Shown here: positions 19,403-42,956 of the stretch, in pieces
Numbering within the stretch: position 1 is the first letter of the stretch
Layout: each line of letters begins with the position of its first letter
DNA from: Candidatus Pantoea floridensis
GTDB lineage: Bacteria > Pseudomonadota > Gammaproteobacteria > Enterobacterales > Enterobacteriaceae
Assembly (NCBI RefSeq): GCF_900215435.1
Contig: NZ_OCMY01000001.1
Span: forward strand, 1,364,001-1,428,000
Direction of reading: 5' to 3'
DNA length: 64,000 bases
The notes under the pieces: generated by a model
Databases searched by the model: none
What the model was told of the DNA's origin: nothing
The model's input: only the letters and a program-made list of their open reading frames with translations
Position numbers and translations under genes: made by a program

Positions 19403-19523
19403 AGCGTTAACCAATACCACACTGTTGCTTTTTTATTCGATCTCTCATAATAGCAGCAGTACCCATTTCCCTGGTGTTGGCGCAGTATTCGCGCACCCCA
19501 GTTTCGACTGGGGTCATTTTTTT
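19403..19523 (+). ncRNA. arcZ: Small regulatory RNA ArcZ
   Basis: The conserved 3' half of ArcZ (RyhA/SraH) is recognisable: TTTCCCTGGTGTTGGCGCAG (seed region, from 19469), then TATTCGCGCACCCC and a Rho-independent terminator with stem ACCCCAGT/ACTGGGGT at 19494-19513 and a U-rich tail to 19523. The 5' end is set by the E. coli length of about 121 nt and is approximate. ArcZ is an Hfq-dependent sRNA that activates rpoS and represses motility and other mRNAs, and is repressed by ArcA in E. coli. It is antiparallel to arcB; the arcB stop codon (19514-19516) lies within the terminator tail. Confidence 0.9.
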
Positions 19524-21868
19524 CTGACGTCCTGTAATTTCTCTCGCTCAGCAACCCATTCACGTAACACGTTCACGTCCTGCAACCATTCCTGTTTTAA
19601 TTCGTCGATCCACTCCTGGACATTGTCCCACCACGCTGGCAATTCCGGCGACTGAATCTGCTTCGCCAGCTGTTGCAAGTGCAGTAAACCAACCGAACCC
19701 GCCGCGCCTTTAATCTTGTGGCCTTCTTCGGCAATGCCCTTCTGATCGCGCGCCATCATGTTCGAATCCAGCACATCAAGGTATCCGGGCATCATCTGCT
19801 CAAACATCGTTAAGCTCTGCGTAATCAATCCTGGCCCCACCAATTCAATGTATTGTTCCAGCATTGGGACATCCAACAACATGCGTGATTGCTCGGCCGA
19901 CGACTCGCTGACGATCTCTTCCTGCTCCGGCTGGTAATCCCAAAACTTTTTGATCATGGCGGTCAGCGCCGGTACGGCCAGCGGTTTGCTCAGCACATCA
20001 TCCATGCCCGCATCGAGATACTCTTTTTTGTCCTTCAACACGTTTGCTGTCAGGGCCACCAGCGGCGGCAACGTTGTGCCAGCATGGCGCTGATGGATGG
20101 CGCGCGATACATCAAGGCCCGTCATATCGGGCAGTTGAATATCGAGCAATACCAGATCGAACTCCTGTGGATCAAACATCGCCAGCGCGTCCGTGCCAGT
20201 CATGGCAACTTCCACGCTGCAGCCCAATTTCTCCAACACTGAACGCGCGACAATCACGTTTAGCTCGATATCTTCCACCAGCAGGACGTGCAGCGCCGGT
20301 AACGGCATGCTGTCATCCAGATTGTCGTCCTCAACCTCTTCAGCAACACGTGGCGCGTTGATCTCAACGGTAAAGCAAGAACCCTGCCCCGCGACGCTGC
20401 TGACGCGGATATCGCCACCCATCGCTTGTGCTAGACGCCGTGATACTGCCAGGCCAATACCAGTGCCCGTTGCTGGCTTTCCGCCGTGCTGATCTTTCAC
20501 CTGATAATACATAGCGAAAATCTTGTCCTGCTCCTCCTGAGGAATGCCCATACCTGAATCCTGCACTTCAAAGCGCAGTGTTTCATCCTGAAGATAGGCA
20601 ACGCGCACCACGATTTCGCCCTGCTGAGTAAATTTCACCGCGTTACCAATCAGGTTCCACAGAATCTGACGTAGACGTGTACCATCTGCTGAGATTTTAT
20701 GCGGCAGCGGCAGCTCTGGCGCCATAACAAACTTCAGCCCTTTCGGCTGCGCCAACAGTCCAGAGAGGTTTTCCAGATCGGCGAGGAAGCCGGTGAAATC
20801 CAGCGGCTGATTATCCAGCTGTACTTTTCGGCGTTCGATTTTGTCCACTTCAATAACATCGTTAAAGATGTTGCCGAGCGTGATGGCAGAAACGTGGATA
20901 GTTTTAAGGTACTTCAGCTGTTCCTGATTCAGATCGGTATCGAGCAGAATGCGACTCAGCCCGACGATGCCGTTAAGCGGCGTACGCAGCTCGTGGCTGA
21001 TAGTTGAGATAAAGGTCGTCTTCTCACGGCTGGCGTTCTCCAGCGCGTCTTGGTAGCGCTTACGTTCGGTAATATCGCGGCCAAAGCCCATCAAACCACT
21101 GCGTTTCCCCACGCGGTCGTAATAGGGCACTTTGCGGATCTCAAAGCAGGCTTTGCGGCCATCGGGATATTGCAGCCACTGCTCGTAAGTCAGCGATACA
21201 TTATGACGGAACACCTTCTCATCGGTTTCCAGCACTTTAGTCGCCGCCTCTTCATCATAAATATCGCGCGGCGTCATACCAATCAGCTGTTTTTCGCTCA
21301 TGCCGGTCAACAGTTCCATGGCGCGATTGCAGCCGGAGAACTGCTTATCAATGTTGCGGTAGAACACCAGATCGGGCGACGCATCAAGGAAAGAGCGCAG
21401 GAAGGAGGATTGCTGTTCCAGCTCAATTTGCGCCTGCTCGCGCCGCGCCATCTCTTCGCGCAGCTTGTCCATCACCTGCTCACGCGCCTGTTCGGCTTTG
21501 ATGCGGTCGTTAATTTCCTGATTCAGCTGCGTGATGGTTTCTTTCATCTGCTGGTTAAGCTCAAGGTCGCGTGTGCGCATCTCTTCCAGCTTATCCACCA
21601 GTTTCGTCAGGCGCTGGCGCGACTCTTCCAGTTGATCGACCACCACCGAGAGGAAATAAACCGCCCAGGGCGTAATTAACAGGCCGAAGAATATCGATCG
21701 CACTACGTCAATGCTCTCAACGTGGCCGCGCAGCACCATAGTGACCGCCATCTGCACCACCATCGCCAGCACCACCAGCGCCGACGCTAATAGCAGTGAA
21801 AAGCGAACCAGCCCCAGTTTGACCATCAAATCAACGTAGTACTGCGCTAAAAGGCGAATCTGTTTCAT
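19514..21868 (-). CDS. arcB: Hybrid sensor kinase ArcB
   Basis: The 784-residue hybrid kinase has two membrane helices (about 22-45 and 58-77), a coiled coil (about 80-150), a PAS domain with redox cysteines Cys180 and Cys241, the H-box ISHELRTPLNG with His292, the ATPase domain, a receiver (LVLLDIQLPDMTG) and a C-terminal HPt domain (GHKIKGAAGSVGL). It senses quinone redox state and phosphorylates ArcA under low oxygen. The frame is open to 22099, but MKQIRLLAQYYVDLMVKLG at 21868 matches the E. coli start and numbering. Confidence 0.96.
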   Translation of the reverse strand: MKQIRLLAQYYVDLMVKLGLVRFSLLLASALVVLAMVVQMAVTMVLRGHVESIDVVRSIFFGLLITPWAVYFLSVVVDQLEESRQRLTKLVDKLEEMRTRDLELNQQMKETITQLNQEINDRIKAEQAREQVMDKLREEMARREQAQIELEQQSSFLRSFLDASPDLVFYRNIDKQFSGCNRAMELLTGMSEKQLIGMTPRDIYDEEAATKVLETDEKVFRHNVSLTYEQWLQYPDGRKACFEIRKVPYYDRVGKRSGLMGFGRDITERKRYQDALENASREKTTFISTISHELRTPLNGIVGLSRILLDTDLNQEQLKYLKTIHVSAITLGNIFNDVIEVDKIERRKVQLDNQPLDFTGFLADLENLSGLLAQPKGLKFVMAPELPLPHKISADGTRLRQILWNLIGNAVKFTQQGEIVVRVAYLQDETLRFEVQDSGMGIPQEEQDKIFAMYYQVKDQHGGKPATGTGIGLAVSRRLAQAMGGDIRVSSVAGQGSCFTVEINAPRVAEEVEDDNLDDSMPLPALHVLLVEDIELNVIVARSVLEKLGCSVEVAMTGTDALAMFDPQEFDLVLLDIQLPDMTGLDVSRAIHQRHAGTTLPPLVALTANVLKDKKEYLDAGMDDVLSKPLAVPALTAMIKKFWDYQPEQEEIVSESSAEQSRMLLDVPMLEQYIELVGPGLITQSLTMFEQMMPGYLDVLDSNMMARDQKGIAEEGHKIKGAAGSVGLLHLQQLAKQIQSPELPAWWDNVQEWIDELKQEWLQDVNVLREWVAEREKLQDVRKK

Positions 21869-22758
21869 TACAAGCTCCCTGAACGAAATCTGGCCCATGA
21901 TAGCGTAAATATCGCTACGCCGCGCCGCTTCACCGCAGGAGTTTTGCTCTGTAATGGTGCACCACCGCAGGATTTCGCCGACGTTCCCGTCTATATGCGT
22001 AAAGCGCTTGACTAATTCTGCCAACTGAATAATCTGAAAGGCCGCACTTTTGTCGCGCTTTTCTCTACATCCTGTGCTAATCAGCACCCTGGCAGTCATG
22101 TCGTCTCATGGCTGCATGCCTTTATTGCATACCCATTCAACTTAAACGATTTTTTAATCACGTGTAGCGTGATTAATTTTACTAATGCCAGCGTGATTTT
22201 GATTCAAATATGACGCCATAAGAAAAACAGATACATGCTGTGCATCAGCCGCACCCAACAGAATTTAATGCTGCCATAAGCATCGATGCCAGCATTGTTT
22301 AGATATTAGAGGCACAGGTCACAGTGAGACGGCTCACAGTTACTGGGGGAATGGGAAGGGGAAGATTGACATAAATTTACGAGTAAAAAACTTATAAATC
22401 ATCACGTTAATCGTTAAAAAAGCAGATTACCCTCAACAAAGCTGGCTATTTGACCTGAGTTCGCTTTCCCGATAAGTTGGAATTCCACTGGGAGCTTTCC
22501 TGGTGGGGCTGTGTCTCGGCATATCTATGCAGCAAGAAGACTCCCTCTAGATGCAAGCTATCTCCCGAAAGAGACCGGATTAAAGAGCAGCTCATTAAGG
22601 ACGTGACAACAGTGTCTTAAGAGCCTTTGCTCGGTGTTGCGACGCCCGCTCTTTACGGAGCGGCACAAGAATTGATACCGCAGCCTTTGCAGCTTCAGTC
22701 ACGCTGCGGTACGCGAAAAAATGCAGGTAATGTCAAAAGAAGTTTAAGGAGACTCTCA
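21869..22758. promoter_or_regulatory. arcB-gltB divergent intergenic region and GOGAT-gene leader
   Basis: This 890-base region lacks a convincing gene (yhcC of E. coli is absent). It contains an inverted repeat with 9-base arms TTAATCACG/CGTGATTAA (22154-22176), a CRP-like site AGTGAGACGGCTCACA (22323-22338), and two hairpins close to the start of the downstream gene: CCGCTC/GAGCGG (22646-22663) and TACCGCAG/CTGCGGTA (22676-22711). No T run follows the hairpins, so they are not simple terminators. A ribosome site AAGGAGA precedes the ATG at 22759. Confidence 0.5.
22323..22338. promoter_or_regulatory. CRP-like site upstream of the glutamate synthase gene
   Basis: AGTGA-N6-TCACA differs from the CRP half-site consensus TGTGA-N6-TCACA at one base. 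It is 420 bases upstream of the start codon, so its relation to that gene depends on an unmapped promoter. Confidence 0.4.
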
Positions 22759-25700
22759 ATGTCCACGCAAAAACCGAATCCCTATGGTTTGTATGATCCA
22801 TCAGCCGGAAGTGATAGCTGTGGTGTAGGTTTCATTACCCGTAAGGACGGCGAGCAGACCCATGAGATCCTGCAGATGGCCCATAGCGCGCTGTGCACGG
22901 TACCGCACCGTGGCGGCATGTCCGCCGAAGGCGTGGGCGATGGCGCTGGCGTTAACGTCGATCTCTCCCTGAACTTCTTCCGCAAGGTCACAGGTCTGGC
23001 GCTGGAAGCTGCCCGTTTTGGCGTGGGTAACTTCTTTGTGCCCAAAGACGCGGAACTGCGCGCTAACGCTGAACGTCTGGTAGAAGAAACGCTGGCGGCA
23101 CACAACTTCCCGGTATTAGTGAAACGCGATATGCCGCTGGACGGCAGTGTGACGCGCCCGGCTGCCCTGCAATTCCAGCTGCCGATTGTACAATGGGTTT
23201 TTGCTGCGCCGCAGGAAGTGACTGACCAACTGGAATTCGAGCGCCAGATTTATCGCGCGCTGCTGGATATCGAAGCGCGCGCCTTTACCGAAAGCGAATT
23301 CGGCGGCCTTTATCCGCTGTCGCTCTCCTCGCGCACCCAGGTATTTAAAGCCCGCCTGAACTCCAACGAAGTGATTCCTTACTTCAAAGATTTAACCGAT
23401 GCCGACCATCAGGTGCGCGGGTTGTTCTTCCATACCCGCTTCTCCACCAACACCGATCCGCATACCACCATGGCGCAACCGTTCCGCTTGATGGCGCACA
23501 ACGGCGAACTGAATACCGATCGCAAAAACCGTATTGCCGAAGCGGCACTGATGCTGGCGCGTGGAAAGAAAATTGTGCGCCCTAAAGGTCAGTCCGACAG
23601 CTCACGTCTGGACCAGAGCATTCACAGCCGCTTGATGGAAGATAACCTCGACCTGATCAACGCCGTTGTTTCCATGATGCCACCGGCCTGGGAGAACGAT
23701 ACGTCGCTCTCAAATGAAGTACGCGCCATGCTTGAGTACTTCTCATTATATGAAGAGAAAAACGATGGCCCGGCCGCGCTGATCTTTGGTAATGGTGAAG
23801 TGATTGGTGCCCGTCTTGACCGTCTCGGTCTACGTCCGCTGCGTTCCGTTGAAACGGCGGAATATATCGGAGCCATGTCGGAAGCGGGCCAGATCGCCTT
23901 CCCTCCGGAAAGCGTGCTGCGTCGCGGCCGTATCGAAGCGGGCGGTATGCTCTATTACGATCACAAAGAGAAACGCTCTTACACCACCGTGGAAGCGCTG
24001 GAAAAACTGGCGGCGGAGAAGGATTACCTGTCGCTGCTGAGTAAAGCGCGTGTCGACCTCGCCGATCTGCCAGAAATTCAGGCTGAGCAGCTCGGCTCTC
24101 CGCTGCGTTATCGTGGTGACCTGCAAACCTATCAGCGTTTTGTGGCCTACTACTACAACCAGGAAAGCTTCAAATTCATGATGGACCCGATGCTGCAAAC
24201 CGGCGCTGAGAAGATCTCAGCGATGGGTTACGGCAACGCCATCAACGGCCTGTCCGACCACGAAGGCGGCATGGCGCACTACTTCTCGCAACGCTTTGCC
24301 CAGGTCACTAACCCGCCGCTTGACTCCATCCGTGAAGCGGACGGCATGACGCTGCGCGTTGCCCTGGGTGCGAAACCGCACCTGGGTCGCAGCAAGGGCC
24401 AGCAAATCATCGTACCAACACCAATTTTGACGCACCTCGACATGCTGCGCCTGCGCGAACAAACCGTCGCGCCTTATGCGCGCTTCGAGATGCTGTACGA
24501 GCCAGTCGTCGGCAAAGATATCGTCAGCCGCGCAGCTAATGCCAACGCGCTGGAAAAAGCCATTGATGACTTAGCGCAGCAGGTTGTTGATTTCGCACGC
24601 CAGCAAGGTGGTATCGCGGTAATTACCGACCGCCACATCTCCTCAACCCACGCGGCGATCCCGATGCTGCTGATGGTATCGGCGATTAACCAGCGTTTGG
24701 TGCAGGAAGGTCTGCGTCTGGATGTATCGCTGGTAGTAGAAAGCGGCCAGAGCATCTCTTCGCACCATATCGCGGCAACGCTGGGCTTCGGCGCTTCTGC
24801 CGTTTACCCACTCGGCGTGCAGATGCGTGCGGAAGAGAAATTCGGTGAAGGCGAAGAAGGTAACAAAGCCTTTAAACGCTATGCCAAAGCAGCAGAAAAA
24901 GCGCTAATGAAAACCATGGGCAAAGTGGGCCTGTGTACCGTTGAGAGCTACAGCTGCGGCGAGTTCTTCGAGCCTAACTTCCTGAATACCGACGATCCGG
25001 TATTGAAAAAGTATTTCCCGAATATCAAAACCCCCGTTGGCGGCGCCGGCTTCCCGGCTATCGCCCAAATGGCGGTCGACTGGCATCAAAGTGCGCTGAA
25101 AATTCAGGGCGAAGCGGAAGTCCCCTTGCTCGGCCTGTTCAAAGAGCGTGCTGAAGGTGCTGGCCATTCTTACGGCACCATTGCGGTACGCACCTTCATT
25201 GATATGACGGAGCAGCCGATTCGCTTTGCTAACAAAGAGCGCGAAGAGGACAACTTTATTCGCCTGATGACGCTGGCTAAACTGGATAACGCTTTCAATA
25301 TCAAAGCGGAAGCCTTTAAAGACAGCAGCTTCGAGCGCATCCCGAATGATGTTATCGATAACTTTGCCATCACGCCCGATTACCGTCAGTTCTCCAGCCT
25401 GATGCATGCCGAGCGTAAACGTCGTCCTGCGGCGCTGCGGGACATCCTCGCGCTGCCTTGCGATTTGACGCACGTGGATAGCGAAGCGGAATTCGGCCGT
25501 AAGCTGGGCCGCTACTCGCTGGTTAACAACGGCTTCGCGACGCGCGGCCTGAAGTGTGAAGCGGTAAATGGCAGCCTGAATCAGTTCGAGCTGCGCCTGA
25601 TCGATGCGATTGCTGGCCTGAAGCCAGAGAATGAGCGCCTCGAAGCACTGTCGCGTGCGTTGAAAACGCGCTTCAGCGACGATATCGAAAGCAGCAATGT

Positions 25701-28290
25701 GGCAGATGGCGTTCTGCACATCACCGCTTACGGCAAAGCTGCGGATTATCTGTCGCTGATCTTCACTGCGCTGCCCTCGCTGCCGCTGGAAGAGATTCAA
25801 CCGGCACACGAAATTACCCGTACCTTTGCTTCCGGTGCCATGAGCCACGGTGCGTTGGTAGCGCCTGCGCACGAAGCGGTGGCGCACGGTACCAACATGG
25901 TGGGCGGCATGAGTAACTGCGGCGAAGGTGGCGAACACTATTCACGCCACGGCACCATCCGCGCCTCACGCATTAAACAGCTGGCGTCTGGACGTTTCGG
26001 CGTGTGGGCAGCTTATCTGGCCGACCCAATGCTGGAAGAGCTGGAGATCAAAATCGGCCAGGGCGCGAAGCCAGGTGAAGGCGGCCAGCTGCCAGCACCA
26101 AAAGTGACCGTTGAGATCGCGGCAGCCCGTGGTGGTACACCAGGCGTTGAGCTGGTTTCACCACCGCCGCACCACGACACTTACTCTATCGAGGATTTGG
26201 CTCAGCTGATCCACGACTGCAAAGCCGCGCGCGTGCGCGTCATTGTGAAACTGGTGTCATCCGAAGGCATCGGCACCATCGCCGTGGGCGTGGCGAAAGC
26301 CGGCGCGGACGTGATTAACGTGGCGGGTAACACCGGCGGTACCGGTGCAGCATCGGTCACCAGCCTGAAATATACCGGTCGCGTAGCGGAAATCGGCATC
26401 GCTGAAGTACACCAGGCGCTGTGCGCCAATGGCCTGCGCGACAAAGTGCAGCTGCGCTGCTCCGGCGCACAGCAGACCGGCAGTGATGTGATCAAATCTG
26501 CCCTGCTCGGCGGCGACAGCTTCGAGTTCGGTACCACCGCGCTGATGATGCTGAAATGCGTGATGGCGAAAAACTGTAACGTTAAATGCCCGGCCGGTTT
26601 AACCACCAACGCCGAAGCTTTTGATGGCGATCCGCGTCAGCTGGCGCAGTACTTCATCAACGTGGCGCAGGAAGTGCGTGAGTTCCTTGCTCGCCTCGGT
26701 CTGCGTTCACTGCGCGAAGCACGTGGCCGTTCTGATCTGCTGCATTTGATGGATCACCCGCTTGAAGTCGGCAAACTGGATCTGCGCGCCATGTTAACCG
26801 TGGTGCCAGAGCAAAAAATTGCTAAGCCGGTCTATCTGGAAAAAGATTTTGAGCTGGATGATGGCTGGGTCAATGAGCTGAAAACCCAGCTGGTTGGCGA
26901 GGCAAGCCGTGAAATCGCGCTGGGCGCGGGCATCACGCTGAACAACCGTAACAAGAGCGTGGGTGGACAGCTGGCAATTGATATCGAGCGCATGCTGAAC
27001 CACGAGCTCACTAAAGAGCAGCTGGCAGCGCTGCCTGCGGTGCTGAAAGATGACCGCGGTCGTCACTATCTGGCGCCAGCCACCGTGCTGATTAACACCA
27101 GTGGTTCTGCCGGCCAGTCGTTCGGCGCATTCTGCAACGACGGCATGCAGCTGAAACATTACGGCACCTGTAACGATGGCGTGGGCAAAGGTCAGTGTGG
27201 CGGCGAGCTGGTGGTGATGTCACCGGGCGGCGGCGCACAGGATAGCGATGGCAACGTCTTGATCGGTAACTTCGCCCTGTTTGGTGCCACCGGTGGTCGT
27301 CTGTTCGTACAGGGCCAGGCGGGTGACCGCTTCGCGGTGCGTAACTCTGGTGCCACCGCCGTGGTTGAAGGCGTCGGCGACTTCTGCTGTGAATACATGA
27401 CCAACGGCGCCATCCTTAACCTTGGCACCTTCGGTAAAGGCTTTGGCAACGGCATGAGCGGCGGTTTCGCCTACCAGTACGATCCTTATGGATCGCTGGC
27501 GGCACATGCAGCCGGTGATTCAGTCCTGTTTGGCTCCATCGCCGATGAAGATGAAATGGCGCAGGTGCATAAGCAAGCGGTGCTAACCATGCTGAACTGG
27601 CATCTGGAAGCGACCCAGTCACCGCGCGCTGCCTGGCTGCTGGAGAACTGGGAAACCGAGTGCCACCACTTTGTTTACGTGATGCCACGTTCGCTGCTGC
27701 TGTATCAGGATGGCACCGAAATCCTGAAAGCAAAATCGCGTAAAGATCTGCTCGAAGAGCTGTCGACGTCGCTGGCTGCGCATCAGGTCGCTAAATTCAA
27801 ATCGGCGTGGCGTGACGGTAAAACCATCGCCAACGGTGCCGTACCGGCCTACGGCGCGACCGATACGCTTGAGATGTTTGTGCTGCTGAATAACTACACC
27901 GTGCTGAGCCTCGCGCAGCAGCTGGCGTTGGGCAAACTGCCAAAAGGTACGGCGGTGGAAGATCCGGCCGTTGAGAAAGCCGTGCGTAATCTGCTGATGA
28001 CCGAAGATTTCGCGCTGATAAGCAAGCTACAACGTCATGCGCGCTCTGCGATTGAAAGCTATAGCGATGACGAGCTGGCAAGCCTGATCGCCGCTAAACG
28101 TATGGCGGATTATAAAGCGGCATTGACGCAACGTAACATTCGCTCCATGGACAGCCTGGCGACGTATGGCTGGATCATTTATCAGGATGCCTGCAACCGT
28201 GAGGTTCTTGGCCATCTGCCTGATTTCGAAGAGCTGTTTGCACGTGCTGCACTGCCAGAAATCGCTGCTGCGGTCGGGAAACTTTCCTGA
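22759..28290 (+). CDS. Large glutamate-synthase-like protein (GOGAT alpha-like, 1843 residues)
   Basis: The protein has GOGAT domains in the usual order. A class II glutamine amidotransferase domain comes first, with likely nucleophile Cys21 (after SDS, preceding GVGF), HTRFSTNT near residue 225 and MAHNGELNT near 246. The FMN-binding synthase domain starts near 1015 (ASGAMSHGAL, QGAKPGEGGQLP). Three cysteines at 1267, 1273 and 1277 could bind a 3Fe-4S cluster, and a GXGXG beta-helix lies near 1468-1575. Expected reaction: glutamine + 2-oxoglutarate + reductant to 2 glutamate. It differs strongly from E. coli GltB, which is about 1486 residues: the central region is longer and there is a helical C-terminal extension of about 270 residues. 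It sits in the gltBD position, but gltD is absent; a CysJ-like flavoprotein gene follows after 69 bases. Start chosen at the ATG with AAGGAGA ribosome site. Confidence 0.85.
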   Translation: MSTQKPNPYGLYDPSAGSDSCGVGFITRKDGEQTHEILQMAHSALCTVPHRGGMSAEGVGDGAGVNVDLSLNFFRKVTGLALEAARFGVGNFFVPKDAELRANAERLVEETLAAHNFPVLVKRDMPLDGSVTRPAALQFQLPIVQWVFAAPQEVTDQLEFERQIYRALLDIEARAFTESEFGGLYPLSLSSRTQVFKARLNSNEVIPYFKDLTDADHQVRGLFFHTRFSTNTDPHTTMAQPFRLMAHNGELNTDRKNRIAEAALMLARGKKIVRPKGQSDSSRLDQSIHSRLMEDNLDLINAVVSMMPPAWENDTSLSNEVRAMLEYFSLYEEKNDGPAALIFGNGEVIGARLDRLGLRPLRSVETAEYIGAMSEAGQIAFPPESVLRRGRIEAGGMLYYDHKEKRSYTTVEALEKLAAEKDYLSLLSKARVDLADLPEIQAEQLGSPLRYRGDLQTYQRFVAYYYNQESFKFMMDPMLQTGAEKISAMGYGNAINGLSDHEGGMAHYFSQRFAQVTNPPLDSIREADGMTLRVALGAKPHLGRSKGQQIIVPTPILTHLDMLRLREQTVAPYARFEMLYEPVVGKDIVSRAANANALEKAIDDLAQQVVDFARQQGGIAVITDRHISSTHAAIPMLLMVSAINQRLVQEGLRLDVSLVVESGQSISSHHIAATLGFGASAVYPLGVQMRAEEKFGEGEEGNKAFKRYAKAAEKALMKTMGKVGLCTVESYSCGEFFEPNFLNTDDPVLKKYFPNIKTPVGGAGFPAIAQMAVDWHQSALKIQGEAEVPLLGLFKERAEGAGHSYGTIAVRTFIDMTEQPIRFANKEREEDNFIRLMTLAKLDNAFNIKAEAFKDSSFERIPNDVIDNFAITPDYRQFSSLMHAERKRRPAALRDILALPCDLTHVDSEAEFGRKLGRYSLVNNGFATRGLKCEAVNGSLNQFELRLIDAIAGLKPENERLEALSRALKTRFSDDIESSNVADGVLHITAYGKAADYLSLIFTALPSLPLEEIQPAHEITRTFASGAMSHGALVAPAHEAVAHGTNMVGGMSNCGEGGEHYSRHGTIRASRIKQLASGRFGVWAAYLADPMLEELEIKIGQGAKPGEGGQLPAPKVTVEIAAARGGTPGVELVSPPPHHDTYSIEDLAQLIHDCKAARVRVIVKLVSSEGIGTIAVGVAKAGADVINVAGNTGGTGAASVTSLKYTGRVAEIGIAEVHQALCANGLRDKVQLRCSGAQQTGSDVIKSALLGGDSFEFGTTALMMLKCVMAKNCNVKCPAGLTTNAEAFDGDPRQLAQYFINVAQEVREFLARLGLRSLREARGRSDLLHLMDHPLEVGKLDLRAMLTVVPEQKIAKPVYLEKDFELDDGWVNELKTQLVGEASREIALGAGITLNNRNKSVGGQLAIDIERMLNHELTKEQLAALPAVLKDDRGRHYLAPATVLINTSGSAGQSFGAFCNDGMQLKHYGTCNDGVGKGQCGGELVVMSPGGGAQDSDGNVLIGNFALFGATGGRLFVQGQAGDRFAVRNSGATAVVEGVGDFCCEYMTNGAILNLGTFGKGFGNGMSGGFAYQYDPYGSLAAHAAGDSVLFGSIADEDEMAQVHKQAVLTMLNWHLEATQSPRAAWLLENWETECHHFVYVMPRSLLLYQDGTEILKAKSRKDLLEELSTSLAAHQVAKFKSAWRDGKTIANGAVPAYGATDTLEMFVLLNNYTVLSLAQQLALGKLPKGTAVEDPAVEKAVRNLLMTEDFALISKLQRHARSAIESYSDDELASLIAAKRMADYKAALTQRNIRSMDSLATYGWIIYQDACNREVLGHLPDFEELFARAALPEIAAAVGKLS

Positions 28291-28359
28291 TTATAGCTTT
28301 ACGGAACATGTGTAATTTAGACTTTATATTTTGATTGAACAGGATTGAGCGCCTTACCG

Positions 28360-30108
28360 ATGAAAATTCCTTACATTCCTGAAGATGCACCGTTTAACGG
28401 TGAGCAGAAATATTGGCTGGCGGGTTTTCTCGCCGGTCTCCACTCGCGCCTGCTGGTATTAGAAGACAAGCAGAGCGCACCGGCTGCCGGTGCCAACACG
28501 CAGCTGCATATCCTGTTCGGTTCACAAACCGGTAATGCCGAAGCGCTGTCGCAAACTGCCGCTAAAGCCGCGCGTGCCAAAGGTTTGGTGCCGGTGGTTC
28601 AGGCTCTGGGCGAAGTGGATCTGGATGTGTTCGCCACTATGCGTCACGTGCTGATCGTCACCTCGACTTATGGCGAAGGCGAAATGCCGGACAACGCCCA
28701 GCTGTTTTGGCAGGCGATTTCAGCCAGCACCGCACCGCGTCTGGAGCAGATGCACTTTGCAGTACTGGCGATTGGGGACACCGGCTACGACGGTTTCTGC
28801 CAGGCGGGTAAATTCATCGATATGCGTCTGGAACAGCTCGGTGCGAAACGCGTGGCCGATCGTATCGACTGCGATATTGATTTCGAAGAGCCGTCCAGCG
28901 AGTGGATTGGCACGGCAATGCCGCAGTTTGCCGCCAGCGCAGGCAGCAGCGGAACTGCACTTGAGAGCGCACCTGAAGCACCGGTCATTCCGGGCAGCAA
29001 TAAGCAGAACCCTTATGCTGCCGCATTGGCGACCAATAAGCGCCTGTCGGCTGAGGAGTCGGCTAAAGATATTCGTCACTTTGAATTCGATCTCACCGAC
29101 AGTGGTTTGAAATATGAAGCCGGCGATGCGCTGGGCGTGATCCCGGTGAACGACGCGGCGTTGGTTTCACTGCTGCTGGCCGAACTGAAAGCGGATTACG
29201 AAACGCCGGTGCCAGGCTTTGATCGCAACCTTGGCGATCTGCTGACGCACCAGTTCGAAATCTCTGAGCCATCACGCAAACTGATTGAGTGGGTTGGACA
29301 GCACACCACCAACCAGGAATTGCGTCACGTTTTGCAGCACGACGACAAAGATACTCTCGCCGTTTGGCTGTGGGGCAAAGATACGCTGGATCTGCTGCAG
29401 CTTGAGCTGACGTGCAGCCTCTCAGTGCCGGAATTCGTTGCCATGCTGCGCCCACTGCAGCACCGTGCGTACTCCATCTCGTCGAGCTCGAAAGCGCATC
29501 CAAATCAGGTGCATCTGACCATCGCTTCCGTGCGCTATCACAGCGGCGGCCGTGAGCGTAAAGGCGTGTGCTCAACCTACCTGGCTGAACGTGTTCGTCG
29601 TGGCGAAAAGCCGGCGATCTTCATTTCGCCCAACAAAGCGTTCCGCGTGCCGGCAAATGGCAATGCTCCGCTGATCATGGTGGGTCCAGGCACCGGCATC
29701 GCCCCGTTCCGCGCGTTCCTGCAGGAACGTCAGGCAACCGGCGCGCAAGGTAAAAACTGGTTGTTCTTCGGCGACCAGCATCAAGCACATGATTACATCT
29801 ATGAAGAAGAGCTGAGTGCGTGGCAGGAGAATGGCCTGCTGACAAACCTCGATCTCGCCTTCTCACGCGATCAGGAAGAGAAGATTTACGTGCAGAATCG
29901 CATGCTGGAGAAAGGCGCGGAGCTATACGCCTGGCTGCAGGATGGCGCCTACTTCTACGTGTGTGGCGATGCCTCACGTATGGCGAAAGATGTGGATGCC
30001 GCACTGTATGAAGTGGTTCGTCAGTTCGGCGGCTTGTCCAGCGAGCGTGCGGCAGCCTACATTGATCAGCTGAAGAAAGATAAACGCTACCTGCGTGACG
30101 TCTACTAA
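28360..30108 (+). CDS. CysJ-type NADPH diflavin reductase, probable partner of the GOGAT-like protein
   Basis: The 582-residue protein has a flavodoxin (FMN) domain (FGSQTGNAEALS near residues 48-60, STYGEGEMPDNA), a linker, then an FAD/NADPH ferredoxin-reductase module (RAYSISSSSKAH for FAD, GPGTGIAPFRAFLQER for NADPH ribose/pyrophosphate, YVCGDASRMAKDV) and C-terminal aromatic Tyr (RDVY). This is the architecture of sulfite reductase alpha subunit CysJ (599 residues in E. coli). There is no cysI or cysH beside it; the only neighbour in its operon is the glutamate-synthase-like gene, so a role as electron donor to that enzyme is inferred. A TTG five codons upstream (28345) is possible but the ATG at 28360 is preferred. 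Confidence 0.85.
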   Translation: MKIPYIPEDAPFNGEQKYWLAGFLAGLHSRLLVLEDKQSAPAAGANTQLHILFGSQTGNAEALSQTAAKAARAKGLVPVVQALGEVDLDVFATMRHVLIVTSTYGEGEMPDNAQLFWQAISASTAPRLEQMHFAVLAIGDTGYDGFCQAGKFIDMRLEQLGAKRVADRIDCDIDFEEPSSEWIGTAMPQFAASAGSSGTALESAPEAPVIPGSNKQNPYAAALATNKRLSAEESAKDIRHFEFDLTDSGLKYEAGDALGVIPVNDAALVSLLLAELKADYETPVPGFDRNLGDLLTHQFEISEPSRKLIEWVGQHTTNQELRHVLQHDDKDTLAVWLWGKDTLDLLQLELTCSLSVPEFVAMLRPLQHRAYSISSSSKAHPNQVHLTIASVRYHSGGRERKGVCSTYLAERVRRGEKPAIFISPNKAFRVPANGNAPLIMVGPGTGIAPFRAFLQERQATGAQGKNWLFFGDQHQAHDYIYEEELSAWQENGLLTNLDLAFSRDQEEKIYVQNRMLEKGAELYAWLQDGAYFYVCGDASRMAKDVDAALYEVVRQFGGLSSERAAAYIDQLKKDKRYLRDVY

Positions 30109-30121
30109 GACGCGCAGACAT

Positions 30122-30152
30122 AAAAAAACGGGCCAATCATCGGCCCGTTTTT
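30122..30152. terminator. Bidirectional terminator between the diflavin reductase gene and sspB
   Basis: Stem ACGGGCC/GGCCCGT at 30128-30148, preceded by seven A and followed by five T, between two convergent genes. Confidence 0.85.
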
Positions 30153-30172: not shown

Positions 30173-30664
30173 TTATTTCACTACGCGGAGTGAAGGTCGT
30201 CCGCCACGCGGCGGCGGCGGCTCATCATCTGGCGAGTGATCGTCATCAGTCGCATCATCCGGACGATCGCCATCAATCACAGACATCATCGTCTCTTCCT
30301 GACCACTACCATCCTGATCTTCCGTCGCCAGCTCATAAGCCGGTTCCGGTTCGAACATGGTGCCAGCACCGTTTTCACGGGCGTAAATTGCCAGAACCGC
30401 AGCCATCGGCACAGAGACCTGACGCGGTACGCCACCAAAGCGCGCATTGAAACGCACTTCATCATTAGCGAGGTCAAGATTGCCTACCGCACGTGGCGCG
30501 ATGTTCAGAACAATCTGCCCATCGCGCGCATATTGCAGCGGCACCTGCACACCAGGCAGATTAATGTCGACCACCAAATGCGGCGTCAGCTGGTTATCAA
30601 GCAACCAGTCATAGAATGCACGCAGTAGATAGGGACGACGCGCCGTTAGTTGCGACATTTCCAT
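30173..30664 (-). CDS. sspB: ClpXP protease specificity-enhancing factor SspB
   Basis: The 163-residue adaptor has the ssrA-tag-binding domain (residues about 4-110: RPYLLRAFYDWLLDNQLTPHLVVD, NIAPRAVGNLDL, FNARFGG), an acidic flexible linker and the conserved C-terminal ClpX-binding motif RGGRPSLRVVK. It delivers ssrA-tagged peptides from stalled ribosomes to ClpXP. The frame extends to 30697, but MEMSQLTARRPY at 30664 aligns with the E. coli start. It follows sspA by 4 bases. Confidence 0.96.
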   Translation of the reverse strand: MEMSQLTARRPYLLRAFYDWLLDNQLTPHLVVDINLPGVQVPLQYARDGQIVLNIAPRAVGNLDLANDEVRFNARFGGVPRQVSVPMAAVLAIYARENGAGTMFEPEPAYELATEDQDGSGQEETMMSVIDGDRPDDATDDDHSPDDEPPPPRGGRPSLRVVK

Positions 30665-30668
30665 ACTA

Positions 30669-31310
30669 TTAGCCCCGAGCTTGCAGGCGCATTTCACGTT
30701 CTGCTTCTGTCAGTGACGCAAGGAAAGAGTCACGTTCAAATACGCGCGTCATGTAGCCTTTCAGCTCTTTAGAACCTGCGCCAGACAGATCCACACCCAT
30801 CTGCGGCAGACGCCACAGCAGCGGTGCCAGATAGCAATCTACCAGGCTGAACTCTTCGCTCATGAAGAAAGGCGTACGTGCAAACAGTGGCGCAATTGCC
30901 AGCAGCTCTTCACGCAGTTGCTTACGCGCTGCATCGGCTTCTGCACCATTGGCAGTTTCGATGGTGCGCATCAGGCTATACCAATCCTGCTCAATGCGGT
31001 GCATCATCAGACGACTTTCACCACGCGCAACCGGATAAACCGGCATCAGCGGTGGATGCGGGAAACGCTCATCGAGGTATTCCATGATGATGCGTGATTC
31101 GTACAGCGTCAGTTCACGGTCGACCAGCGTAGGTACTGTGCGATACGGGTTGAGGTCAATCAGATCCTGCGGCAGGTTATCCGTTTCAACCTGCTCGATC
31201 TCCACGCTGACGCCCTTCTCAGCCAGTACAATGCGTACTTGATGGCTGAAAATGTCAGTCGGACCAGAAAACAGCGTCATTACCGAACGTTTGTTGGCAG
31301 CGACAGCCAT
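30669..31310 (-). CDS. sspA: Stringent starvation protein A
   Basis: The 213-residue GST-fold protein has an N-terminal thioredoxin-like domain (MTLFSGPTDIFSHQVRIVLAEKGV, with VPTLVDRELTLYESRII) and a helical C-terminal domain ending KGYMTRVFERDSFLASL. It binds RNA polymerase and is required for phage P1 late transcription and acid tolerance; it lacks GST activity in E. coli. The ATG at 31310 has a GGAGG ribosome site. Heads the sspAB operon. Confidence 0.96.
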   Translation of the reverse strand: MAVAANKRSVMTLFSGPTDIFSHQVRIVLAEKGVSVEIEQVETDNLPQDLIDLNPYRTVPTLVDRELTLYESRIIMEYLDERFPHPPLMPVYPVARGESRLMMHRIEQDWYSLMRTIETANGAEADAARKQLREELLAIAPLFARTPFFMSEEFSLVDCYLAPLLWRLPQMGVDLSGAGSKELKGYMTRVFERDSFLASLTEAEREMRLQARG

Positions 31311-31580
31311 GAAAACCTCCAAGTTTGTTCACAAAAAGATACTGCGAATAGCCAACCACACGGCGACTCACCGGCTCATCAGATTCGCCTACCGTCAGCG
31401 TTAGAAGCATCGCCCAGCCTTCCCGACAGGAACGACAAGCACAACGCTGCTTCTCGCAGGCGCAAAGTGACAGTGAGTTTACCAGATTTTAAGCAGCTTG
31501 TGGGGCAGGCGTAATGATTTGCGGGCAAAATGCGGGTAAAGCTCGCGTTTTTGGTGGTAATAATTGGTAAAAAGGGCAAT
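31311..31580. other. sspA upstream region
   Basis: The 270 bases between sspA and the rpsI terminator contain no credible gene. The sspA promoter must lie here on the minus strand; a -10-like TAAACT at 31476-31481 is the best candidate but lacks a convincing -35. Confidence 0.4.
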
Positions 31581-37104: not shown

Positions 37105-38082
37105 TTAGCTGCGGTCAACCGGGAAGGCGATCACTTCGCTCAACGCGCTGGCTTTCAGCGCCAGCATAATCAAACGATCAACACCTAGCGCCACGCCAGA
37201 GCAGGCAGGCATGCCGTGTGCCAACGCGTCCAGCAGGTTGGTATCGATAGGATGCTGCGGCAGGCCACGCGCGGCACGGCGACGATTGTCCTGCTCAAAG
37301 CGTTGACGCTGTTCACGGCTATCGGTCAGCTCACGGAAACCATTCGCCAGCTCAATACCTTTGTAATAGACCTCAAAGCGTTCGGCGACGCGATGATCTT
37401 CGGTGCTGATTTCCGCTAATGCCGCCTGCGTTGCCGGAAAGTGATAAACAAAGCAGGGCTTATCATTACCAATCTTCGGCTCAACGCCCAGCATAAACAG
37501 CAGCTGCAGCAGCGTATCGCGGTCTTCCTCGCGATTAGCCAGTTCGCCCTCGCCCAGCTTCTGCGCCACTTCGCGCAGCTGCGCTTTATCGGCTGACAGC
37601 GGGTCGATCTCCAGATGACGAATAAACGCCTGCTGATATGACAATGACTCGGCGCTATCGCACTCCAGCACCTGCTGCATCAGATCGTCCACCTCATTCA
37701 TCAGGCGGTACATATCGTAGTGCGGGCGATACCACTCCAGCATGGTAAATTCAGGATTATGGTGACGTCCCGCTTCCTCGTTACGGAAGCTGCGGCCCAT
37801 TTGATAAATCGGTCCGCTACCCGCTGCCAGCAGGCGCTTCATATGATATTCCGGACTGGTCATCAGCCACAGATCGCGTCCTTCAGCGGCGCCCGGCCCA
37901 ACAAAACGCGTCTGGAACGGGACCAAATGAATGTCCGTGATAGTCGCCTGGCTCATCGCCGGAGTATCCACCTCCAGCACGCCGCGATCGGCAAAGAAAC
38001 GACGAATTTCCGCCATAATGGCGGCGCGTTTCAACAAATTGGCAATGGGTGCGCTTGGCTGCCAGCTTGCCGTTTCGCTCAT
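37105..38082 (-). CDS. epmA: EF-P lysine ligase EpmA (PoxA/GenX)
   Basis: The 325-residue protein is a truncated class II lysyl-tRNA-synthetase paralogue without the anticodon-binding domain. It shows class II motif 2 ([23 protein letters not shown]) and motif 3 ([14 protein letters not shown]). EpmA attaches beta-lysine, made by EpmB, to Lys34 of EF-P. In E. coli, frdABCD, ampC, gdx, blc and ecnAB lie between epmA and efp; here only blc and ecnB remain. Confidence 0.95.
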
Positions 38083-38229
38083 GTTGATGACTCCTCATAC
38101 AAATATGGGGTGGAAGTCTACCCGCATTGGCGATGGCAAACAACGACGCCGCAGCGCCAGCGGATGCCAGCAGCAATTTAGTAACGGGCAGCTATACTTA
38201 ACTCATTAAAATTGTGAAGGAATCCCCTA

Positions 38230-38754
38230 ATGTCTCCATGGAAAACTCTCGTCGCCAGCCTCAGCGCGTTCCTCTCAGTTGCATGCTCAACCACGCCGCC
38301 AAAAGGCGTTACGGTGGTCGAGGGATTCGACAGCCAGCGCTATCTCGGCCAATGGTATGAAATCGCTCGTCTTAATCACCGCTTTGAACGTGGTTTACAG
38401 CAGGTCACGGCCAATTATAGCCCGCGCGATGATGGTGGCCTGAAAGTGGTTAATCGTGGTTTCAACCAGCAGAAGCAACGCTGGCAAGAGAGCGTTGGCA
38501 AAGCCTATTTCACCGGCGATAAACAGCGCGCTGCGCTGAAAGTCTCGTTCTTTGGTCCGTTCTATGGTGGCTACAACGTGATAGCGCTGGATCCGGACTA
38601 TCGCTATGCGCTGGTATGCGGCCCGAATCGTAGCTACTTATGGATTCTCTCACGCACGCCACAATTAGATGAAGGTGTTAAAAAGCGCCTGGTCGAACAG
38701 GCCAGAAGTGCCGGATTCCCGGTAGATGAGCTGATTTGGGTTGAACAGAAATAG
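38230..38754 (+). CDS. blc: Outer-membrane lipocalin Blc
   Basis: A 174-residue lipoprotein: lipobox LSVAC with lipidated Cys20, followed by the lipocalin signature YLGQWYEIARLNHRFERG and the second conserved block FFGPFYGGYNVIALDPDYRYALV. Blc binds lysophospholipids and is expressed in stationary phase in E. coli. Residues after the Cys are Ser-Thr, not Asp, consistent with outer-membrane sorting. Divergent from epmA across 147 bases. Confidence 0.93.
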   Translation: MSPWKTLVASLSAFLSVACSTTPPKGVTVVEGFDSQRYLGQWYEIARLNHRFERGLQQVTANYSPRDDGGLKVVNRGFNQQKQRWQESVGKAYFTGDKQRAALKVSFFGPFYGGYNVIALDPDYRYALVCGPNRSYLWILSRTPQLDEGVKKRLVEQARSAGFPVDELIWVEQK

Positions 38755-38758
38755 AGAT

Positions 38759-38785
38759 CCGGTGTGAAAGCAGCTTTCACACCGG
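38759..38785. terminator. Hairpin between blc and ecnB
   Basis: Perfect 12-base stem CCGGTGTGAAAG/CTTTCACACCGG with a 3-base loop between two convergent genes. It lacks a U run on either side, so termination may be partial. Confidence 0.55.
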
Positions 38786-38791
38786 GGTATC

Positions 38792-38926
38792 TTACTGTGC
38801 GCTGCGCTGAATTGCCTTACCGCCCGCCGAAACATCTTCGCCGACACCACGCGTGGTGTTACAGGCGGTCAGAACGGAAGAGAGCACCAGCACGGAAAAA
38901 ATCGCGACAATACTTTTCTTTAACAT
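38792..38926 (-). CDS. ecnB: Entericidin B-like lipoprotein
   Basis: A 44-residue lipoprotein: [19 protein letters not shown] signal, lipobox LTAC, then [18 protein letters not shown], nearly identical to entericidin B, a small toxic-type cell-envelope lipoprotein. The longer open frame to 39052 has no support; the ATG at 38926 has an AAGGA ribosome site 7 bases upstream and corresponds to the E. coli start. The antidote gene ecnA is not seen next to it. Confidence 0.9.
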
Positions 38927-39072
38927 AGCCATATCCTTTTTGGTTGCAGTAAAAGTACAGCTCTTAAAGCATAGTCTTGATTTGGAAAAATGCGGATTCA
39001 ACGGCAGGAAAAGAGTGAAGCAGAGGCACAGCGAAGAAAAAAGGCGCATCACCGATGCGCCTGATTTGACGA

Positions 39073-39639
39073 TTATTTTACGCGAGAAACGTATTCGCCA
39101 GAGCGGGTATCAACTTTTACCACTTCGCCAATCTGCACGAACAGTGGCACTTTGATCACTGCGCCCGTTGAAAGGGTTGCTGGCTTGCCGCCGGTACCTG
39201 CGGTATCACCTTTCAAGCCTGGATCGGTTTCGATCACTTCCGCTTCGATGAAGTTCGGTGGCTGAACAGCGATCGCTTTATCGTTCCACAGGGTAACGAT
39301 ACAATCCGCATTGTCCTGCAACCACTTGGTCACGTCATCCAGCACTTTAGATTCGATCTGATACTGCTCGAAAGATTCCGGGTGCATGAAGTAGTAGAAG
39401 TCGCCGTCGTTGTAAGAATATTGCAGCGTCATATCACGAACATCTGCGCCTTCGGCAGAGTCAGTGGATTTGAAGGTCTTCTCAACGCGAGAACCGGTCA
39501 GCAGACGACGCATTTTAACGCGTGCGAATGCCTGGCCTTTACCCGGCTTAACAAACTCACTGGCTTCGATGGCATATGGCTCGCCTTCGAACATGATTTT
39601 AAGACCGGGACGGAAATCGTTGCTAAGATAAGTCGCCAT
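39073..39639 (-). CDS. efp: Translation elongation factor P
   Basis: The 188-residue EF-P has the KOW-like N-domain with the modified residue Lys34 in VKPGKGQAF, and OB domains II and III (signature [16 protein letters not shown] region and the C-terminal [12 protein letters not shown]). It rescues ribosomes at polyproline. Start at 39639 ([12 protein letters not shown]), not the upstream frame extension to 39690. It is divergent from epmB with 42 bases between the start codons. Confidence 0.97.
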
Positions 39640-39681
39640 AAAGGCCCTCTGTAAATATTGAACTGGTAAATAGCCAAAAAA

Positions 39682-40710
39682 ATGGCACACATTGTAACCC
39701 TAAATCCCCCTGTCAGAGAAGATTGGTTACAGCAACTCGCTGATGTTGTCACCGAACCTGCTGAATTACTGCAACTTTTATCTCTGGATCAGCATGCAAA
39801 TCTGGCCGCAGGCGCTGATGCGCGCAAGCTTTTCGCCTTACGCGTACCTCGGGCCTTCATCGCACGCATGAAACCAGGCGATGCCACCGACCCGCTGCTG
39901 CTGCAAGTATTGACCAGCCGTCAGGAATTTATTGATGCGCCGGGTTATAGCACCGATCCACTGGACGAACAAAGCAGTGTTGTGCCCGGTTTGCTGCATA
40001 AATACCGAAATCGTGCGCTACTACTGGTAAAAGGCGGTTGTGCGGTCAATTGTCGCTACTGTTTCCGCCGTCATTTCCCCTATCAGGATAACCAGGGCAA
40101 CAAGCGCAACTGGCAAGCGGCCATTGATTACATCGCCGCGCATCCCGAGCTGGACGAGATCATTTTTTCGGGCGGCGATCCGCTGATGGCCAAAGATCAC
40201 GAGCTGGCATGGCTGGTTACGGCGCTGGAAAAAATTCCCCACCTGAAGCGCCTGCGCATTCACAGCCGCCTGCCGGTGGTGATCCCCGCACGTATTACCG
40301 AAGGTTTGTGTCAGATTCTGGCGGAAACGCGTCTGCAAGTATTGATGGTAAGCCATATCAATCATGCGCAGGAGATTGACGATGAGCTACGTCACGGCAT
40401 GCAGATGTTGAAGCGGGCGGGCGTTATGCTGCTCAATCAGAGCGTGCTGCTGCGCGGAGTGAATGACAACGCCCAGATTCTGGCAAATCTCAGCAACGCA
40501 CTGTTTGACGCCGGCATTCTGCCCTACTACCTGCACGTGCTGGATAAGGTACAGGGCGCGGCACATTTCTTTGTTTCTGATGAGGAAGCACGCACCCTGG
40601 TACGCCAGCTGCTGGCGAAAGTCTCTGGCTATATGGTGCCGAAACTGGCACGAGAAATTGGTGGCGAGCCAAGCAAAACGCCGCTGGATTTACAGCTGCG
40701 CCAGGAATAA
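39682..40710 (+). CDS. epmB: EF-P (R)-beta-lysine synthase, L-lysine 2,3-aminomutase EpmB
   Basis: A 342-residue radical SAM enzyme with the CxxxCxxC cluster motif ([14 protein letters not shown]) and the lysine aminomutase-type segments [21 protein letters not shown]. It makes (R)-beta-lysine for EF-P modification by EpmA. With efp, epmA and epmB all within 4 kb, the modification pathway is linked here; the EpmC hydroxylase gene is not in the window. Confidence 0.96.
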
Positions 40711-40736
40711 AAAAAGCCGCATTCGCGGCTTTTTTT
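40711..40736. terminator. Bidirectional terminator after epmB
   Basis: Stem AAAGCCGC/GCGGCTTT with loop ATTC at 40713-40732, starting right after the epmB stop and followed by a T run; the A run also serves yjeI on the minus strand. Confidence 0.88.
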
Positions 40737-40747
40737 ACGACGGCACA

Positions 40748-41095
40748 TTACGGACACTTATACACCTGGCCGGACATTTTGCTGTCGAGGGGAGCGAAAG
40801 CTGACAGCAGATTTTGCGTCGGGCTGGTGGCGCCATAAATCACGTTGCCGCCCATTTCCGCCGCGCGATTGCGCAGGTCGTTTGCCGCGCCGCGCAGTGA
40901 ACTGCCTTCCCCGCCAGAACCGCTCAGCCAGTTGCTCTGTGAGCCAGTGAGCGTTCCCAGCAGCTGACATTGGCTGGCTGGCTGTTGGTCGACGAAGGTC
41001 ACGCGTTCGCCGCCGGCACTCAGTTGATTGGAGCTGCTGCAACCCGCCAGCAGTAAAGTTCCCACTGCCAGTCCGAGCAAGAGGTTAATCCGCAT
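40748..41095 (-). CDS. yjeI: DUF4156 lipoprotein YjeI
   Basis: The 115-residue protein has a signal peptide ending in lipobox LLAGC, followed by SSSNQLSAGGERV and a conserved Cys-containing DUF4156 domain (CQLLGTLTGSQSNWL, GGNVIYGATSP, QVYKCP). The two remaining cysteines probably form a disulfide. Function is unknown. The ATG at 41095 has a GGGGA ribosome site; the ATG at 41107 does not. Located between epmB and groL as in E. coli. Confidence 0.88.
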   Translation of the reverse strand: MRINLLLGLAVGTLLLAGCSSSNQLSAGGERVTFVDQQPASQCQLLGTLTGSQSNWLSGSGGEGSSLRGAANDLRNRAAEMGGNVIYGATSPTQNLLSAFAPLDSKMSGQVYKCP

Positions 41096-41235
41096 TGTAA
41101 TCCCCATTTATTATCATCAGTGTCGGGCGGCAGCGTAGCAGAAAAGCGCACTTTTTTTCTGAACATTCATTGCCCTAAACCCGTAAAGCCGAAGTATTGC
41201 GCCCTTACTTATACCTTGTTCGCCCGCAAAAGAAA

Positions 41236-41263
41236 AACCCCCGACCGTTTCCGATCGAGGGTT
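41236..41263 (-). terminator. Imperfect hairpin after groL
   Basis: AACCC/GGGTT-based stem with internal mismatches, followed on the minus strand by a U-rich tract (A run at 41233-41237), 28 bases after the groL stop. Confidence 0.6.
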
Positions 41264-41291
41264 TTCAGATGGCTTAAGCCGTCAGGGGCAA

Positions 41292-42956
<1,665 letters not shown>

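Follow-up and report, generated by a model that had tools for sequence, protein, structure and literature searches.

A variant glutamate synthase large chain paired with a CysJ-like diflavin reductase at the gltBD site of a Pantoea-type genome

The stretch of DNA analysed here, referred to throughout as the window, is 64 kb long (C1:1364001-1428000) and belongs to a 5.45 Mb genome rated 100% complete (label G000); its closest named relatives are Pantoea. The window contains a gene for a variant large chain of glutamate synthase (GOGAT) and, 69 bases further along the same plus strand, a gene for a CysJ-like diflavin reductase (Table 1). An initial annotation had described the pair as a GOGAT-like gene of 1843 residues followed by a 582-residue reductase with domains for flavin mononucleotide (FMN), flavin adenine dinucleotide (FAD) and reduced nicotinamide adenine dinucleotide phosphate (NADPH), and both the open reading frames and the Pfam domains agree with that description. 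Its placement of the pair at the site of E. coli gltBD is likewise borne out, as arcB lies upstream and sspB/sspA-like genes lie downstream. A pattern scan of the 69-base gap between the two genes listed no terminator-like or promoter-like site. A terminator-like hairpin of 13 pairs is present at 30124-30152, between the reductase gene and the convergent sspB-like gene.

Table 1. Coordinates of the gene pair, of segments within the large chain, and of flanking genes in the window
Feature	Coordinates	Strand	Remarks
Variant GOGAT large chain	22759..28290	+	ATG at 22759, stop ends at 28290; 1843 residues; frame intact
Diflavin reductase, CysJ-like	28360..30108	+	ATG at 28360, stop ends at 30108; 582 residues; proposed electron donor
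Iron-sulfur (Fe-S) cysteine motif C1267-X5-C1273-X3-C1277	26557..26589	+	E. coli GltB has CX5CX4C, one residue longer
Variant-only inserted segments, within residues 813-1006	25195..25776	+	Lie between the central and FMN domains; E. coli GltB lacks them
C-terminal extension, residues ~1662-1843	27742..28287	+	Almost no counterpart in E. coli GltB
arcB	19514..22099	-	Upstream neighbour; arcB also flanks gltBD in E. coli
sspB- and sspA-like genes	30173..31322	-	Downstream context

The anatomy of the large chain was read against E. coli GltB and GOGATs of known structure, and judged by its sequence the protein belongs to the family of GOGAT large chains. Its Pfam domains GATase_2 (residues 21-423), Glu_syn_central (460-738), Glu_synthase (990-1315) and GXGXG (1425-1599) follow one another in the order of the GltB type, the NCBIfam large-subunit cut-off NF008730 is narrowly passed (1057.5 versus 1047 bits), and its best match to E. 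coli GltB, spanning 650 residues, is ~43% identical. The glutaminase cysteine (Cys21) is present in 99% of 167 aligned variants, and the 2-oxoglutarate/FMN loop at residues 1094-1112, which also occurs in solved GOGATs, is kept in 95-100% of them. The shortened cysteine motif CX5CX3C was found in all 130 variant sequences scanned (10 locus translations and 120 database proteins, the latter being the listed part of 162 matches), and a stretch in the FMN region reads SGAQQTG in the variant versus DGGLKTG in E. coli GltB. Neither the insertion nor the C-terminal extension has a Pfam relative or a significant relative in the PDB. When residues 885-1030 were modelled alone with AlphaFold2, a small alpha/beta domain was predicted (predicted local distance difference test, pLDDT, 81.4; predicted template modelling score, pTM, 0.71), for which no significant fold match was found.

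The partner protein has the domain order of a diflavin reductase, with Flavodoxin_1 at residues 51-174, FAD_binding_1 at 214-407 and NAD_binding_1 at 440-545. The closest solved structures are those of CysJ, NADPH-cytochrome P450 reductase is also a sequence relative, and the protein is ~42% identical to CysJ-like proteins of the order. It misses both curated CysJ cut-offs (TIGR01931, 609.3 of 668.15 bits; NF008197, 502.8 of 838 bits) and passes the NCBIfam model PRK06214, ‘sulfite reductase subunit alpha’ (480.2 versus 432 bits). Among 16 paired reductases, 31 of the 149 invariant columns differ from E. coli CysJ, and the FMN loop reads STYGEGEMPDNA, as compared to STQGEGEPPEEA in E. coli CysJ. 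Database records name the two parts of the pair ‘glutamate synthase-related protein’ and ‘sulfite reductase subunit alpha’.

The window's genome encodes one full-length GOGAT; of the remaining Glu_synthase matches, one falls inside that gene and two are short and lie in open reading frames of ~400 residues. The absence of GltD was judged by a single Pfam domain, Fer4_20, which forms the N-terminal part of GltD; a search for it, positive in 9 of 14 control genomes, among them that of E. coli, and capable of picking up GltD proteins merely 33-36% identical to E. coli GltD, gave no match in the whole of the window's genome. The initial annotation's statement that gltD is missing thus agrees with the genome-wide result, and a canonical gltBD elsewhere in this genome is ruled out by the lack of Fer4_20 together with the single full-length GOGAT. 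Its companion statement, that no cysI is present, is correct for the neighbourhood and wrong for the genome, as a separate cysJ-cysI-cysH cluster lies at C1:2850670. The paired reductase is therefore not the sole candidate for sulfite reduction, and the cluster rules it out as the CysJ of this genome. Two genes of the glutamate dehydrogenase (GDH) family, with open reading frames of 429 and 426 residues (L100, L101), are located on a second contig, C2.

The reductase gene lies 3’ of the GOGAT gene, adjacent to it and on the same strand, at 66 of 66 loci examined, which confirms the fixed adjacency across genomes. These comprise 48 genome_contigs loci labelled Pantoea, Erwinia, Mixta, Winslowiella and Enterobacter (twice), 13 whole-genome loci with the window among them, and five plasmid records, read out of nine that matched, from Shinella, Ketogulonicigenium, Neorhizobium, Sinorhizobium and Tsukamurella. 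Gammaproteobacteria, Alphaproteobacteria and one actinomycete are thereby covered; the named and the other genome sets may overlap, and the 66 loci are not independent cases. The GOGAT frame is broken in three of the 48 loci (Pantoea assemblies L022, L060 and L062), by either sequencing error or decay. In an order-wide sample of 295 genomes, where up to four candidates were scored per genome in the reductase search, the C-terminal extension of the GOGAT occurs in seven, and a reductase match above 600 bits stands beside the GOGAT in the same seven and in no others, the next-best match reaching 473 bits (Fisher p = 3e-14 for co-occurrence, kinship ignored). Chance adjacency was rejected, as all 66 loci are adjacent and the same seven genomes carry both genes. 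The pairwise distances of 23 GOGAT-reductase pairs correlate with r 0.97, a value reached in none of 2000 permutations, and such a correlation would also be expected from plain co-inheritance. The variant is patchily distributed, being present in 7 of 246 genomes of the family and in 6 of 398 of the phylum (these sets are drawn samples with one genome per species), and database proteins of the variant, read without genomic context, derive from Corticibacter, Lampropedia, Methylobacillus, Rhodococcus, Mycolicibacterium and others. This patchy occurrence, combined with constant pairing, suggests that the two genes moved as a unit by transfer.

In our preferred reading, the pair is the only GOGAT of Pantoea and many Erwinia-type bacteria and stands there in the former chromosomal position of gltBD. 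In nine of the 13 carrier genomes (G000, G097, G238, G267, G347, G396, G402, G708 and G833, of which G347 is 91% complete) the search for Fer4_20 gave no match and there is a single GOGAT; the other four (G370, G021, G094 and G178) also contain canonical gltBD. Among 47 further Pantoea/Erwinia-type genomes (those behind the named loci, minus L028), 42 gave no Fer4_20 match and one gave a match below the cut-off, while in the remaining four the domain occurs solely in open reading frames of 651-701 and 1056-1101 residues, which are not GltD-sized. P. ananatis LMG 2665 (L046, G890) carries the pair and has no Fer4_20 match. The order arcB-gltB-gltD-sspB-sspA in genome G499 corresponds to arcB-GOGAT-reductase-sspB-sspA in the window; in G402, which shares its genus with G499, the order is arcB-GOGAT-reductase, and the next 5 kb that were read showed no sspBA. 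With canonical gltBD at arcB in one member of this genus and the variant pair there in the other (L104, L105), the two offer a natural before-and-after comparison. In G370, the interval from arcB to sspBA holds canonical gltBD, and the variant pair lies ~180 kb away. In G021, G094 and G178 (L106, L107, L108), which belong to two other families of the order, gltBD and the variant pair are chromosomal neighbours, so both systems can coexist side by side. Mixta mediterraneensis Marseille-Q2057 (L025/G870) has no Fer4_20 match in its genome. In the accessible part of a study of a Mixta mediterraneensis symbiont, gltB and gltD were inferred (PMC10927894); this gltD call may be a misannotation, although the isolates are different from Marseille-Q2057.

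A report from 2025 bears on function in P. ananatis. According to its accessible portion (PMC12364357), strain AJ13355 yielded no close homologue of the E. coli GOGAT, the putative gltB of this strain is 64% identical to Agrobacterium tumefaciens GOGAT, and its gltB knockout is a glutamate auxotroph, for which Hara et al. 2012 is cited; P. ananatis is also described there as having a single GDH gene, located on a megaplasmid and poorly expressed with glucose and ammonium. The reductase goes unmentioned in the same portion, as does any gltD of P. ananatis. The P. ananatis genome read here is that of LMG 2665, whereas the reported knockout was made in AJ13355. Taken together, the reported auxotrophy, the pairing and the absence of GltD indicate that a GOGAT of the variant type very probably makes glutamate in a cell without GltD, and that the adjoining NADPH reductase is the best candidate for its donor. 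The forms of glutamate synthase listed in the accessible text of a review are GltD-fed, ferredoxin-fed and fused NADH enzymes, and the word ‘diflavin’ is absent from that text (PMC8097209). No description of a diflavin reductase as a glutamate synthase partner was found in the open-licence PMC literature, subscription papers being outside the scope of the search.

We consider the pair to be an NADPH-dependent GOGAT fed by its diflavin reductase, a reading to which we assign a probability of roughly 0.8. The two genes would specify one enzyme system, with a dedicated diflavin reductase in the place of GltD. Electrons would travel from NADPH to the FAD of the reductase and on to the FMN of its flavodoxin-like domain, steps that follow the chemistry of CysJ-type reductases; this domain would then hand single electrons to the Fe-S cluster held by C1267, C1273 and C1277 of the GOGAT, from which they would reach the FMN in the barrel. 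The reduced FMN would convert 2-iminoglutarate, formed from 2-oxoglutarate and the ammonia freed from glutamine at Cys21, to glutamate, and the variant-only insertion and C-terminal extension may constitute the docking surface. The last steps of this proposed chain follow the known glutamate synthase mechanism, as outlined in the accessible part of the review (PMC8097209). The route of the electrons, the complex of the two proteins, the docking function of the added segments and the type of cluster are our inferences; what the analysis itself contributes are the domains, the conserved catalytic residues, the strict pairing, the lack of a GltD-type domain and the occupation of the gltBD site. 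These results support the proposal of the initial annotation that the pair represents a third kind of electron delivery to GOGAT, in which the flavodoxin-like domain would be the direct donor.

Several points weigh against a diflavin-fed GOGAT. Electron transfer between the two proteins and complex formation are putative, and the strict adjacency would also fit a reductase that feeds some other carrier. The shortened cluster motif and the SGAQQTG stretch leave several cluster types and FMN properties possible. In the four of 13 carriers that keep canonical gltBD the pair may do something else, and the cited gltB knockout could be polar on the reductase gene.

Three other explanations of the pair are less likely. 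A stretch of ~17 residues in the ferredoxin-dependent GOGAT of Synechocystis (chain positions 914-932), which we take to be the ferredoxin loop, has no counterpart in the variant, and a one-to-one pairing with a reductase bearing its own flavodoxin domain would be needless if free carriers sufficed. For these reasons it is unlikely that the large chain is ferredoxin-GOGAT-like and is fed by the cell's free ferredoxin or flavodoxin, with the reductase keeping that carrier reduced or serving something else, even though the variant resembles ferredoxin-GOGAT in having no GltD and in carrying both FMN and the Fe-S motif on the large chain alone, and even though flavodoxin can generally replace ferredoxin as a donor, as stated in the accessible review text (PMC8097209). 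We give still less credence to the idea that the reductase is a second sulfite-reductase flavoprotein or a general reductase, merely co-transcribed with a GOGAT that draws on another donor. Its CysJ-like sequence, its closest solved structures, its database name and the PRK06214 match all point in that direction, but a genuine cysJIH exists elsewhere in the genome, the two curated CysJ cut-offs are missed (the TIGR01931 score and the separate cluster both answer the question, raised at the outset, of whether the flavoprotein serves sulfite reductase), and among the 295 genomes the reductase occurs solely with the variant GOGAT.

It is least credible that the GOGAT-like protein is a related amidotransferase-flavoenzyme acting on another substrate, glutamate being made mainly by GDH. 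The limited identity to E. coli GltB, the altered FMN stretch and cluster spacing, the new segments, the two GDH-family genes in the genome and the retention of gltBD by some carriers would all accommodate such an enzyme. However, the 2-oxoglutarate/FMN loop and the glutaminase cysteine are kept, the variant is the sole GOGAT in nine of the 13 carriers, and in P. ananatis GDH is poorly expressed and the gltB knockout requires glutamate, as reported in the part of the 2025 article cited above (PMC12364357).

With a diflavin-fed GOGAT as the preferred reading, the pair probably represents a further class of glutamate synthase, characterized by a remodelled Fe-S site (CX5CX3C), its own docking segments and a dedicated NADPH diflavin reductase, which spread horizontally as a unit across phyla and displaced gltBD at its own site in the Pantoea/Erwinia group, where it makes glutamate from ammonia and dispenses with GltD's 4Fe-4S relay. 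Glutamate synthase occupies a central position in nitrogen assimilation, and carriers of the pair that have no GltD point to a so far undescribed way of powering this step. If true, a flavin module of the CysJ/P450-reductase type could take over from GltD and its relay of 4Fe-4S clusters, ammonia assimilation without gltD would be explained in Pantoea, which is used in amino-acid production, and the misleading database name ‘sulfite reductase subunit alpha’ would be corrected.

The remaining surroundings of the pair are as follows. Across 777 residues, the window's arcB product shares 77% identity with E. coli ArcB. In E. coli and G370, yhcC stands between arcB and gltB; the 64-kb window, in which the corresponding interval is 22099-22759, yielded no yhcC. 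The genes 3’ of the pair resemble sspB, sspA, rpsI and rplM, names that we assume from their sequences. Further along, at 37105-42944, degQ/degS-like genes are followed by what look like epmA (class II tRNA-synthetase-like protein), epmB (radical SAM protein) and groEL (chaperonin); E. coli has a different order there, with mdh and argR.

By the features tested, the pair is neither GltBD nor ferredoxin-GOGAT. It shares with GltBD (E. coli; Azospirillum brasilense, 6s6s and 2vdc) the domain order of the large chain, the catalytic loops and the place beside arcB. However, GltBD relies on GltD with FAD and two 4Fe-4S clusters, whereas the variant has a diflavin reductase partner and no GltD, and the CX5CX4C motif of the E. 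coli and A. brasilense enzymes contrasts with CX5CX3C of the variant, which also has the insertion and the C-terminal extension. Ferredoxin-GOGAT (Synechocystis, 1llw and 1ofd) likewise works without GltD and holds FMN and the Fe-S motif on one chain, but it contains the loop insertion near 914-932 that the variant lacks, and the variant has a dedicated NADPH reductase gene. CysJ, the flavoprotein of assimilatory sulfite reductase, has the same FMN-FAD-NADPH domain order as the window's reductase; it is encoded beside cysI, whereas the window's reductase is paired with a GOGAT and falls short of both curated CysJ cut-offs. NADPH-cytochrome P450 reductase follows the same chain from NADPH through FAD and FMN to an acceptor, which in that system is a heme protein, whereas here it would be an Fe-S/FMN glutamate synthase.

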